Of a DNA stretch of 56,963 bases, positions 22,054 to 56,963 are shown one piece after another; within the stretch, counting starts at the first letter, position 1; every line of letters starts with the position of its first letter. Origin of the DNA: Muribaculaceae bacterium (lineage in GTDB: Bacteria > Bacteroidota > Bacteroidia > Bacteroidales > Muribaculaceae); contig JAFLTY010000012.1 of NCBI GenBank assembly GCA_022509065.1, forward strand, positions 1 to 56,963, read 5' to 3'. Under the pieces are notes generated by a model that saw only the letters and a list, made by a program, of their open reading frames with translations, was not told the origin of the DNA and did no database searches. The position numbers were made by a program, and so were the translations under genes.

Positions 22054-22284
22054 TTATTCAGCAGCGGGAGCTTCTTCAGCAGCAGGAGCTTCTTCAGCGG
22101 GAGCTTCTTCTGTAACTTCAGTAGCTTCTTCAGTTACGGTAGCTTCTTCAGCGGGAGCAGCCTGTTCGGTAGCTTCGGGGCAATTGCCGCAAGTGTCGGT
22201 GCATTCGTTTTGTTTTTCACCACCACCGCATGAGAACATTGATACGCTGAAAGCAACAGCAAGGAGTAATACTAACTTTTTCAT
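22054..22284 (-). CDS. Small acidic Glu/Ala/Pro-repeat lipoprotein
   Basis: A 76-residue protein. The N-terminus MKKLVLLLAVAFSVSMFSC is a lipoprotein signal peptide ending in a plausible lipobox, with C19 the lipidated residue followed by GGG. After a small cysteine-containing segment (ECTDTCGNCPEAT) the rest is low complexity: repeated EEATEV, EEAPAEEAP and AAEEAPAAE, very acidic and proline-rich, and surely disordered. It could be a spacer or surface-charge lipoprotein; no function is known to me. The repeats are also DNA repeats (about 22063-22160, unit like gcttcttcag), so copy number may vary. It has its own promoter and terminator, which suggests a highly and separately expressed gene. 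Confidence 0.82.
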   Translation of the reverse strand: MKKLVLLLAVAFSVSMFSCGGGEKQNECTDTCGNCPEATEQAAPAEEATVTEEATEVTEEAPAEEAPAAEEAPAAE

Positions 22285-53296: not shown

Positions 53297-55192
53297 TTAC
53301 TTAACTTCTTCGAAGTCGACGTCAGTTACATGGTCGTCACCGCCTTGAGAAGCGTCGGAACCAGGTTGAGCCTGACTTTGCTGAGCCTGTGCCTGAGCGT
53401 TGAGGATGTCCTGCTGAGCGGCACCGAAAGTAGATTCGATTTCCTTCATTGCGGCTTCGCAACCGGCGATATCCTGAGCTTTGTGCGCGTCTTTAAGTTT
53501 AGTGACGGCAGCTTCGATAGCGGCTTTCTTGTCGGCGGGAATCTTATCGCCAATTTCAGAGAGCTGTTTCTCGGTCTGGAAAATCATAGCGTCAGCCTGA
53601 TTGAGTTTATCGATGCGTTCTTTTTCTTTAGCGTCGGCGGCTGCATTAGCGGCTGCTTCGTCCTTCATGCGCTGAATTTCGGCGTCTGTCAGACCGCTCG
53701 AAGCTTCAATACGTATCGACTGTTCCTTGCCGGTAGCTTTATCTTTAGCTGTTACGTTGAGAATGCCGTTGGCATCTACTTCGAATGTAACTTCAATCTG
53801 AGGTACACCGCGAGGTGCGGGGGCTATACCATCGAGATGGAATTTGCCGAGAAGTTTGTCGTCTTTGGCGAGAGGACGTTCACCCTGGAGAACATTGATT
53901 TCGACAGAAGGCTGATTATCGGCCGCAGTCGAGAAGACCTCGCTCTTGCGGGTAGGTATTGTTGTGTTAGCTTCGATAAGTTTTGTCATAACACCGCCGA
54001 GAGTCTCGATACCGACACTCAGAGGCACTACGTCAAGCAGAAGCACGTCTTTTACATCGCCAGAGAGAACGCCACCCTGGATAGCTGCACCAACAGCGAC
54101 CACTTCATCGGGATTTACACCTTTAGAGGGCGTCTTGCCGAAGAATTTTTCAACGACCTGTTGAATGGCAGGAATACGGGTGGAACCGCCTACGAGAATA
54201 ACCTCATCGATGTCTGAAGCTTTGAGACCGGCATCCTTAAGAGCCTGTTCGCACGGTCCGAGAGTAGCGTTTATGAGTTTGTCTGCCAGTTGTTCGAATT
54301 TAGCTCGTGTAAGAGTTTTGACGAGGTGTTTGGGTATACCGTTTACCGGCATGATATAGGGCAGATTGATTTCGGTAGAAGTTGTTGAAGAAAGCTCGAT
54401 TTTAGCTTTTTCGGCAGCTTCTTTGAGACGCTGCATAGCCATTGGATCTTTGCGCAGGTCAATACCTTCGTCTTTGATGAATTCTTCAGCGAGCCAGTCG
54501 ATGATGACATGGTCGAAATCGTCGCCACCAAGGTGAGTGTCACCGTTAGTTGACTTCACTTCAAAAACGCCGTCGCCCAATTCGAGGATGGAGATATCGA
54601 AAGTACCGCCACCAAGGTCGAATACAGCAATTTTCTGATCTTTGTTCGATTTGTCAAGACCGTAAGCAAGCGCAGCGGCTGTCGGTTCGTTCACAATACG
54701 TTTAACGGTAAGCCCGGCAATTTCACCGGCCTCCTTAGTGGCCTGACGCTGAGCATCGTTGAAGTAGGCAGGAACTGTAATGACTGCTTCGGTGATGGGC
54801 TGGCCCAGATAGTCTTCGGCAGTCTTCTTCATTTTCTGAAGAATCATAGCTGAGATTTCCTGAGGGGTGTATTGACGACCGTCAATATCGATACGAGGAG
54901 TATTATTGTCGCCGCGTACAACTTTGTAAGGAACGCGTTCAATTTCGTCTTTAACCTGATCGTAGGTTTCACCCATGAAACGTTTTATCGAATAGATAGT
55001 ACGCGTTGGGTTAGTGATGGCCTGACGTTTGGCGGGATCACCAACCTTACGTTCGCCACCATCAACAAATGCCACAACCGAGGGGGTTGTGTTGCGACCT
55101 TCGCTGTTAGGAATAACAACGGGGTCCTTACCTTCGAGAACGGATACACACGAGTTAGTGGTTCCGAGGTCTATACCTATAATTTTTCCCAT
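53297..55192 (-). CDS. dnaK: Molecular chaperone DnaK (Hsp70)
   Basis: A 631-residue Hsp70. The nucleotide-binding domain (1-380) opens [18 protein letters not shown] and has [32 protein letters not shown] and [15 protein letters not shown]. The substrate-binding domain follows ([28 protein letters not shown]). A helical lid and a Gln/Ala-rich linker end in the conserved DVDFEEVK tail, the ligand for co-chaperones. It folds and refolds client proteins with DnaJ and GrpE, which are not adjacent here. The gene is monocistronic, with promoter at 55303-55272 and terminator at 53237-53274. No CIRCE operator is seen. Confidence 0.98.
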
Positions 55193-55258: not shown

Positions 55259-55271
55259 ACTGATAATTAAA

Positions 55272-55303
55272 CAAAAGTTATGCCAAAAAAGTTGAGCAAC
55301 AAA
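55272..55303 (-). promoter_or_regulatory. Promoter of dnaK
   Basis: On the minus strand TTTG (55303-55300), 19 bases, then TAACTTTTG (55280-55272), one base longer than the TAnnTTTG consensus. Predicted leader is about 73 bases. No heat-shock-specific element is recognisable. Confidence 0.5.
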
Positions 55304-55417
55304 CATAAATGGCAGATAGGAAGAGTGTTTTAAAAACAAAGCCACAGATTATTAGCCAATTATCCCTATACTATAAGAACTCTGTCATTTTGGCAGAAAA
55401 TATAACGCAAGTAGCAT

Positions 55418-55466
55418 AAAAAAGAGGCATATCGTCTTCATTGCCAATGAAAAAACGATATGCCTC
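55418..55466 (-). terminator. Strong minus-strand terminator without an obvious gene in front of it
   Basis: A perfect 12-bp stem, GAGGCATATCGT (55424-55435) against ACGATATGCCTC (55455-55466). Inside it is a second stem (TTCATTG/CAATGAA, 55437-55443 and 55445-55451). On the minus strand it is followed by six T (A-run 55418-55423). The plus-strand side has no T-run, so it terminates leftward transcription only. Confidence 0.75.
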
Positions 55467-55477
55467 ACTATTAGAGA

Positions 55478-55499
55478 CTTCTCATGAAACCATGAGAAG
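55478..55499. other. Perfect 9-bp hairpin with a four-base loop
   Basis: CTTCTCATG (55478-55486), loop aaac, CATGAGAAG (55491-55499). It sits 11 bases from the large terminator hairpin; no T-run follows on either strand, so it is not a terminator itself. It may be a structural element of the predicted minus-strand RNA. Confidence 0.6.
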
Positions 55500-55626
55500 G
55501 GAAAAACCATGATATGTGTATCTATAGTCCGAAGCATATTAAAACCATTCTTAATCAACAATAGTGCAAATCAAAAAATTTTATCTATGAATAAATGACA
55601 AACACAATAAACCACAGGAACCTCGT

Positions 55627-55818
55627 TTAAAAGTCCCACGTGAACGGACACAGAAACACGACGAATGTCGAACGACCCTTCGCCCACGCCGTCGGGATGC
55701 CTCTTGGTGCATCTACCCCGGGCGCGTTTGTGTGCATAGTCACACTTAGATGGAAATATTTCAAATAACTCTTTGTGAATAATATAGTTAAATTTGTCTT
55801 ACTATAAATCATAGACAT
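55627..55818 (-). CDS. Possible 63-residue microprotein of unknown function
   Basis: The ATG at 55818 is about 13 bases below the predicted transcription start. The first 27 residues (MSMIYSKTNLTILFTKSYLK onward) come from AT-rich DNA. The last 36 come from the GC-rich island and contain MHTNAPGVDAPRGIPTAWAKG and the hydrophobic end FVVFLCPFTWDF. The break in composition inside the frame argues either that the frame is accidental or that a foreign segment was inserted. I recognise no domain. The promoter placement is the main support for coding; the structured DNA is the main argument against. Confidence 0.3.
   Translation of the reverse strand: MSMIYSKTNLTILFTKSYLKYFHLSVTMHTNAPGVDAPRGIPTAWAKGRSTFVVFLCPFTWDF
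55631..55730. repeat. GC-rich structured island, possibly a dispersed repeat element
   Basis: My count gives 61 G or C in these 100 bases. The flanks have 19 in 70 (55561-55630) and 25 in 120 (55741-55860). The block contains several short inverted repeats and the sequence CCACGTGAA. The abrupt edges suggest an inserted element; copies elsewhere in the genome would confirm it. Confidence 0.45.
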
Positions 55819-55837
55819 ATTTATATTATTTACACTG

Positions 55838-55868
55838 CAAAATTACAACATTAAAATTGATTATACAA
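55838..55868 (-). promoter_or_regulatory. Promoter of the predicted minus-strand RNA
   Basis: On the minus strand TTG (55868-55866), 20 bases, then TAATTTTG (55845-55838), fitting the Bacteroidetes consensus. Predicted start of transcription is about 55831. Confidence 0.5.
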
Positions 55869-55964
55869 GAATAAAAGCAGTAATTAACAAAGTTTAACTT
55901 TGTTAATTACGCAAATAAAAAAGACACAAAAAAGAATTCCCCTAAGTTAAATCATCTTCAGATT

Positions 55965-55998
55965 TTATTACAGGTAATGCATTATTACAGGTAATGCA
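55965..55998. repeat. Exact tandem duplication of a 17-base palindromic unit
   Basis: The unit ttattacaggtaatgca occurs at 55965-55981 and again at 55982-55998. Each unit contains the inverted repeat ATTAC-AG-GTAAT. The junction makes a larger one, TGCATTA-7-TAATGCA (55978-55998). The spacing of 17 bases (about 1.6 helical turns) suits a dimeric DNA-binding protein. It lies about 220 bases upstream of the KilA-N gene. Confidence 0.85.
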
Positions 55999-56182
55999 GA
56001 AAATATTTTAAAAATATTCTTTTCTTTAGGCAATTTTCAAATTCACTGATCTATCGTTATCGCCTCATCAGAAACTATTCCGGCTTCATCAACAGAACCT
56101 CCATCGCTTCGCGGACAGCAAAACCAATGGATAGACTTGCGTTTCCGCTTCAAAAACGGATACGTCAATCCGAAATATTTAG

Positions 56183-56190
56183 TAAATTTG
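56183..56190 (+). promoter_or_regulatory. Candidate -7 element for the KilA-N gene
   Basis: TAAATTTG matches the consensus and would start transcription near 56197, 20 bases before the ATG at 56217. I see no -33 TTTG at the right distance, so the promoter may need an activator. Confidence 0.4.
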
Positions 56191-56216
56191 TTTTTGGAAA
56201 TCAAAACTTTAAAAAG

Positions 56217-56963
56217 ATGGCAAAAATAATCGTCCAAAATTCCAATATCACTATAATATCAGTTAATGGTGATGATTATATATCATTAACCGATTTGGCA
56301 AAACACAAAAGCGATGAACCAAATGCCGTGATTGCGAACTGGATGCGTAACCGCAATACCATTGAATATCTCGGTATATGGGAACAATTATATAACCCTA
56401 ATTTTAAACCCACCGAATTCGAGGGGTTTAGAATGCATGCAGGCCTAAACGCTTTCACACTTTCACCCAAGAAATGGATAGAAGCGACTAACGCTATTGG
56501 TATAATAGCAAAATCAGGACGTTACGGTGGTACTTTCGCTCACAAAGATATAGCTTTCAAATTTGCAAGCTGGATTTCGGTAGAATTTGAATTATACATT
56601 GTAAAAGAATTTCAGCGACTCAAAGAGGAAGAACAGAAACTAATCGGCTGGTCGGCTAAACGAGAGCTTTCTAAAATCAATTATCGCATTCACACCGATG
56701 CCATAAAAACACATTTGCTTCCACCGGAAATAACGCGTGAGCAGGCAACAAGAGTCTATGCTGACGAAGCCGACGTATTAAATGTTGCGATGTTCGGTAA
56801 AACAGCTCGCCAATGGAGGGAAGAAAATCCCGGTTTGAAAGGAAATATCCGGGATTATGCGACAATCAACGAGTTAATTTGCCTTTCAAATATGGAAAAC
56901 CTCAATGTCGTGTTCATCGAACAAGGTATGCCTCAAAGCGAAAGACTTATGAAACTTAATCAA
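56217..56963 (+). CDS. KilA-N domain protein, 3' end beyond the window
   Basis: The open frame runs 249 codons from the ATG at 56217 to the edge without a stop. The KilA-N domain (about 1-110) is visible as DDYISLTDLAKHKSDEPNAV, WMRNRNTIEYLGIWEQL, KWIEATNAIGIIAKSGRYGG and TFAHKDIAFKFASWISVEFE. A linker helix (YIVKEFQRLKEEEQK) is followed by a second conserved part (ADEADVLNVAMFGKTARQW). KilA-N is a DNA-binding fold of large DNA viruses and phages, also found on bacterial chromosomes as a probable regulator or mobile-element relic. An in-frame ATG at 56127 would add 30 residues, but the family start and the -7 box at 56183 favour 56217. Little is likely missing. Confidence 0.88.
   Translation, partial: MAKIIVQNSNITIISVNGDDYISLTDLAKHKSDEPNAVIANWMRNRNTIEYLGIWEQLYNPNFKPTEFEGFRMHAGLNAFTLSPKKWIEATNAIGIIAKSGRYGGTFAHKDIAFKFASWISVEFELYIVKEFQRLKEEEQKLIGWSAKRELSKINYRIHTDAIKTHLLPPEITREQATRVYADEADVLNVAMFGKTARQWREENPGLKGNIRDYATINELICLSNMENLNVVFIEQGMPQSERLMKLNQ

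Follow-up and report, generated by a model that had tools for sequence, protein, structure and literature searches.

A candidate non-coding RNA unit with a strong intrinsic terminator in the gap between dnaK and a KilA-N gene of a Muribaculaceae bacterium

Introduction

Does the long stretch of DNA between dnaK and a divergent KilA-N gene in a Muribaculaceae bacterium (GenBank assembly GCA_022509065.1) hold a transcription unit of its own, and what would such a unit most likely be? A preliminary description of this DNA proposed a minus-strand unit of about 410 bases with a promoter and a strong terminator, in which no known gene was recognised. Judged by titles and the openings of abstracts, none of the papers found on small or non-coding RNA in Muribaculaceae seems to deal with sRNA genes of the family. 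If it is transcribed, the unit would provide a tangible candidate for an sRNA in a gut-type bacterium that does not belong to Bacteroides, the model genus.

The window, i.e. the whole stretch of DNA that was analysed, has a length of 56,963 nucleotides and is the complete contig C4 of an assembly of 2.28 Mb in 91 contigs that is ~95% complete. In this window, dnaK (53297-55192, minus strand) was identified by a Pfam HSP70 match. The divergent KilA-N gene on the plus strand (56217-56963) has an approximate beginning and runs off the contig. The gap between the two is 934 bp long, which ranks second among 280 gaps sampled, and the candidate unit lies inside it with no gene overlapping. Statistics on terminators, GC-rich islands, codon usage and palindromes were obtained from the window together with 20 other stretches, each of 20 kb (457 kb of the 2.28 Mb), a sample that consists mostly of contig starts and in which ORFs were called crudely.

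Results

Terminator and promoter of the unit

A strong intrinsic terminator is predicted at 55418-55466 on the minus strand. As the preliminary description had stated, it consists of a two-part hairpin of 43 bases (55466-55424) followed by TTTTTT (55423-55418). A 53-base stretch folds with a minimum free energy of -24 kcal/mol, compared with a mean of -7.6 kcal/mol for shuffled sequences, and none of 200 shuffles equalled this value (z -6.85). The plus strand also folds, but without a T tail after the stem.

We scanned the sampled 457 kb for hairpins of -20 kcal/mol or lower ahead of a T run. In total, eight such hairpins were intergenic and two were located within genes. A same-strand gene was found upstream of six of the eight intergenic terminators (in one case more than 300 nt away), and for one no gene was called upstream within its stretch. 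Only the terminator at 55424-55466 has an opposite-strand gene upstream. It is reasonable to read such a one-directional terminator without a gene in front as a sign of a transcript, and this reading withstands the comparison with the genome background. With the threshold at -15 kcal/mol, 19 intergenic hairpins and 17 within genes were obtained, and four of the 19 had an opposite-strand gene upstream. Hence, weaker orphan terminators exist as well. Just ahead of the terminator lies a second minus-strand hairpin of 9 bp with a 4-base loop (55478-55499), which appears in the predicted folds of the whole unit, of 55418-55512 and of 55470-55614. A covariance model of this hairpin plus terminator (R2) matched only itself and its own reverse strand in the 457 kb.

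A match to the sigma-ABfr-type promoter of Bacteroidota, TTG-N20-TAATTTTG, is located at 55838-55868 on the same strand, ~400 nt upstream of the terminator. The pattern is present as it had been described. It is the sole match on either strand in the 750 bases from 55467 to 56216, with 14 matches in the whole window. In 300 shuffles of these 750 bases the pattern was expected 0.13 times per shuffle, and 12.7% of the shuffles carried at least one match, so that the match is weak when taken by itself. The promoter consensus given for B. fragilis in the excerpted text of PMC7366714 is TAnnTTTG at -7 with TTTG near -33, whereas the -33 element here is TTG only. The promoter match would place the transcription start near 55833.

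A perfect palindrome of 31 bp (55880-55910) lies just upstream of the promoter match, with its centre ~62 bp before the putative start. Palindromes with arms of at least 13 bases and a loop of at most 4 bases occurred twice in the 457 kb, and the other one precedes a T run. The palindrome is possibly an operator; ~62 bp upstream of the start is a common binding position of activators. Further upstream, a repeat search detected two tandem 17-bp units TTATTACAGGTAATGCA (55965-55998), the core of which was absent from the other loci compared. An invertible promoter was also considered, but the flanking inverted repeat is imperfect (76%) and too poor to support it.

GC-rich core and coding potential

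From 5' to 3', the unit starts with an AT-rich part, which is followed by a GC-rich island and another AT-rich stretch, and it closes with the two hairpins, that of 9 bp and that of the terminator. The island (55620-55745, minus strand), which we propose as the core of the RNA, reaches up to 62% GC in 100 nt amid AT-rich DNA. Like the 9-bp hairpin and the palindrome, it was not mentioned in the preliminary description. Its GC contrast of 0.385 was the largest among 39 sampled gaps of at least 320 nt, followed by 0.295 for the next gap. The island in that second gap shares sequence with an ORF whose codon score resembles that of coding DNA, and therefore such islands can be small genes. A second copy of the island was absent from the own genome, and a dispersed repeat was rejected.

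The unit as a whole folds better than its shuffles (z -6.0). This folding signal is mostly due to the terminator and the hairpin that precedes it (z -6.85). The island alone (z -0.6) and the 5' part of the unit (z -0.65) fold no better than shuffled sequences, and the stretch 55470-55614 gives a weak signal (z -2.05). The earlier suggestion of a structured RNA is thus partly supported, by the 3' hairpins and not by the island.

Comparisons with NCBIfam, Pfam, PHROG and Rfam gave no credible match, in line with the claim that the ~410 bases contain no known gene. The best matches of eight submitted reading frames had E values of 0.025 (NCBIfam), 0.15 (Pfam) and 0.22 (PHROG), all judged to be chance. 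Rfam yielded no match in the window at the gathering threshold; at E ≤ 10, seven matches were obtained near the unit, with a best E of 0.23 and all far under their own gathering scores. With ARAGORN, the window yielded neither a tRNA nor a tmRNA.

The preliminary description had also suggested a short mRNA for a 63-residue microprotein, encoded at 55627-55818 on the minus strand. The ATG of this ORF lies ~15 nt past the putative transcription start behind an A-rich leader, and its frame stays open across the GC-rich island. Its codon score exceeds that of 88% of wrong-frame fragments, but corresponds to the 3rd percentile of 63-codon fragments from true coding sequence; among 149 intergenic ORFs of at least 40 aa it ranks 63rd. 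The island also contains a 42-aa ORF in plus-strand orientation, which scores at the 12th percentile of coding fragments. The codon score counts against a protein product but is not decisive. Relatives of the 63-residue ORF were not confirmed in genome_contigs or viral_contigs, in a search that finds close relatives only. Among 394 genomes of the family, tblastn produced one weak foreign match (G036, E 0.0013), located between a tRNA-like sequence, recognised by eye, and the end of another ORF, which we judged to be chance rather than a credible relative. Given its codon score and the absence of family hits and credible relatives, the ORF is probably non-coding, and an orphan microprotein from this or another small ORF is an improbable explanation of the unit.

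Among the 149 intergenic ORFs listed, the highest coding score belongs to a 76-aa ORF elsewhere in the window (22057-22284, minus strand), which is possibly a small gene.

Conservation of the unit

DNA searches covering roughly 780 genomes in total, with differing subsets for individual queries, revealed no credible homologue of the unit. A 416-base query matched the own genome only, among 99 genomes that included the own genome and 48 others of the genus. For a 181-base core, matches at E ≤ 1 occurred in 215 of 397 genomes of the family, and those listed outside the own genome were all short, with a best E of 0.004 over 22 bases. When 393 genomes of the order, the own genome included, were searched with a query of 901 bases, foreign matches with E values of 7e-6 to 1e-3 appeared in 33 of them. 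These matches were in AT-rich parts, and each extends over at most 2 bases of the island. The matches in the family and order look like chance.

Covariance models were built from one sequence entered twice and reach near relatives only. Under strict filters, the model of the island (R1) matched the own genome only among 48 genomes of the genus including the own genome. In these 48 genomes no homologue with compensatory changes was found by this one-sequence model, which is weak at a distance. Out of 80 named dnaK loci, which represent the best 80 among 582 listed relatives, 39 were searched with the island model, and it found nothing in them. In a set of 30 loci its only other match was at chance level (11.6 bits, E 0.74). 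A blastn comparison of the unit with the 80 named loci gave one 34-base match (E 0.059), located far from dnaK and judged to be chance. The DnaK protein itself has near relatives among these best 80 of 582: the best segment identity is 93%, to a record labelled Muribaculaceae, and three further relatives with 90% identity carry the label Porphyromonadaceae or Bacteroidales, with near-identical records possibly omitted.

The preliminary description had named beforehand a lack of conservation in close relatives as grounds for rejecting the unit, and as far as the searches reach, no conservation was found. According to the excerpted text of a study of B. thetaiotaomicron, however, 27 of 49 high-confidence intergenic sRNAs, defined by a start site and a terminator, are strain-specific (PMC7366714), and therefore a missing homologue alone does not refute the unit. 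A divergent housekeeping RNA was rejected because no homologue was found in the other genomes of the genus that were searched. Neither did a phage or plasmid origin find support: the matches were weak only, with E values of 0.1 or worse, and three patterns of 20-31 bases had no exact match in viral_contigs. The Rfam 6S model did not match the own genome, which says little because it also missed the control Bacteroides ihuae.

In the whole own assembly, the Rfam tmRNA model gave nine matches under its cut-off and none above. The best of these fragments lies right at a contig edge (C20), and the assembly may therefore have divided the tmRNA.

The region upstream of dnaK

A conserved element in the dnaK promoter region, separate from the orphan unit, was identified at 55269-55299 on the minus strand by blastn against the dnaK upstream regions of relatives. 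It was detected in 12 of the 80 named dnaK loci at E ≤ 0.1. The terminator is located just upstream of this element and therefore separates the unit from dnaK. In the genus, conservation of the upstream element concerns the region 55269-55400. Several relatives carry TGACA...TGTCA-like inverted repeats further upstream of dnaK, with a variant here (by eye), which are a possible heat-shock operator. Pairing of the unit with the dnaK leader was rejected: there is a 10-base complementarity, but 8.5% of shuffles matched the duplex energy. In a crude test that ignored accessibility, the pairing energy of the unit with the start of dnaK ranked 221st among 304 translation starts.

We compared the neighbours of dnaK at 30 loci from 45 matching genomes, comprising the own locus and 29 relatives, one of which has only 49 bases upstream. 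The gene preceding dnaK varies within the genus. In 18 of 28 usable relatives the nearest upstream neighbour is co-directional and in eight it is divergent, while in the remaining two a co-directional gene lies beyond a doubtful ORF. The tail of an M16-type peptidase gene, recognised by eye and tested with Pfam in one case, precedes dnaK in 11 of the 28. Such a peptidase was present in 10 of 12 genomes searched, and was not found in the own assembly or in one of the 11 relatives. Furthermore, terminators of -23 to -29 kcal/mol start 148-222 nt before dnaK in six of 29 relatives, compared with 274 nt here. In two relatives a hairpin of -20 kcal/mol lies nearer to dnaK and overlaps the conserved upstream element, and 21 have none that strong. 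The position of the terminator before dnaK fits the pattern in relatives, and in our reading it supports both a transcript coming from upstream and the loss of a gene.

These comparisons bring up the possibility that the terminator is a relic of a lost co-directional gene before dnaK. The gap would then be decayed or foreign filler, for which its unusual length speaks as well, the promoter match would be chance, and the hairpin may insulate dnaK. This explanation is the main rival of a transcription unit, although we regard it as rather unlikely. The stem is nearly perfect, which is unexpected for an unused remnant, and the promoter match lies a suitable distance away. The gap contains no recognisable trace of the peptidase or of any other gene, and in an assembly of this completeness the peptidase may have been lost to a break between contigs. 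If the terminator were only a relic, it would be of little importance.

The KilA-N gene

The KilA-N gene matches PDC-S22 of PADLOC (E 1.9e-129), a defence label used in Streptococcus suis genomes in the excerpted text of PMC12813430, and PHROG 2657, a transcriptional regulator (E 3.5e-56). It is a candidate phage-defence gene. Its end was found at the end of contig C78, where a PDDEXK_13 / REase-ARP-type nuclease gene follows (L089:18530-19441). Relatives of the KilA-N gene occur in 15 of the 47 other genomes of the genus, some of them as fragments or weak matches.

The match to a defence gene raises the question whether the gap could act at the DNA level, with the palindrome and repeats as KilA-N binding sites or as a self-immunity element and with any minus-strand transcript as incidental. 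A precedent is BstA, a protein with a KilA-N-like domain whose locus contains a cognate DNA element, aba (PMC8585504, as excerpted). Both loci combine a gene of this type with DNA elements, here unusual repeats in the region upstream of the KilA-N gene, including a palindrome of a size that is rare in the sampled genome. In contrast, aba is 63 bp long and spans the start of bstA (PMC8585504), whereas the palindrome and tandem repeats here are located upstream of the KilA-N gene, 219-337 bp from its start, and the gene here matches PDC-S22. An aba-type element with terminal direct repeats was not found across the start of the KilA-N gene.

Of 15 KilA-N loci tried, ten could be placed including our own, and the 31-bp palindrome was absent from the upstream regions of all nine relatives. 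A different palindrome with 13-bp arms occurs in one of the nine, and one with 10-bp arms in another. A fixed link between the palindrome and KilA-N genes is thus unsupported, and a link of the unit itself with the KilA-N genes of relatives was not seen in the regions placed. A DNA-level control region would moreover leave the terminator unexplained, and we give it little chance. Even less credit goes to a combination of both ideas, in which a lineage-specific regulatory RNA would be encoded head-to-head with the KilA-N gene and turned on or off by a dimeric protein bound at the palindrome, and would control that gene at the RNA or DNA level; this is very improbable.

Discussion

The signals in the gap are real and unusual within the sampled part of the genome, and a gene-like reading of them is plausible. 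With a probability of roughly 0.5, we interpret them as a lineage-specific minus-strand unit of ~410 nt that most likely encodes a non-coding, sRNA-like transcript and is separated from dnaK by its terminator. This reading is based on the one-sided orphan terminator, the promoter match on the same strand, the GC-rich core and the weak coding signal.

RNA polymerase would initiate near 55833, possibly assisted by a dimeric regulator bound at the palindrome centred near -62. The predicted transcript would begin with an AT-rich part, continue through the GC-rich core and the 3' hairpin, and end at the terminator, which would additionally stop it from entering dnaK. The RNA may act in trans through base pairing, a mode of action described for GibS of B. 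thetaiotaomicron.

As far as the excerpted texts describe them, GibS (PMC7366714) and MasB (PMC10994844) share with the unit an intergenic position, a match to a sigma-ABfr-type promoter and an intrinsic terminator. Promoters of this type were reported for 76% of the intergenic sRNA candidates of B. thetaiotaomicron (PMC7366714). Narrow conservation is common to the unit, to MasB (PMC10994844) and to the strain-specific majority of the high-confidence sRNAs (PMC7366714). MasB has a length of ~100 nt (PMC10994844), whereas the ~410 nt of the unit are predicted from sequence alone, and no sequence relative of the unit was found in the genomes searched. Since strain-specific, terminator-ended sRNAs are common in Bacteroides, judged from the same texts, the unit would be an ordinary member of this class unless expression data indicate otherwise.

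Orphan terminators can be ranked against the background of their own genome, and in this way could nominate lineage-specific RNAs that are missed by conservation-based searches. A second candidate for an orphan unit is a terminator-like hairpin of -18.7 kcal/mol at L095:5776-5816 (minus strand), which is located in a 390-bp gap and has an opposite-strand gene upstream.
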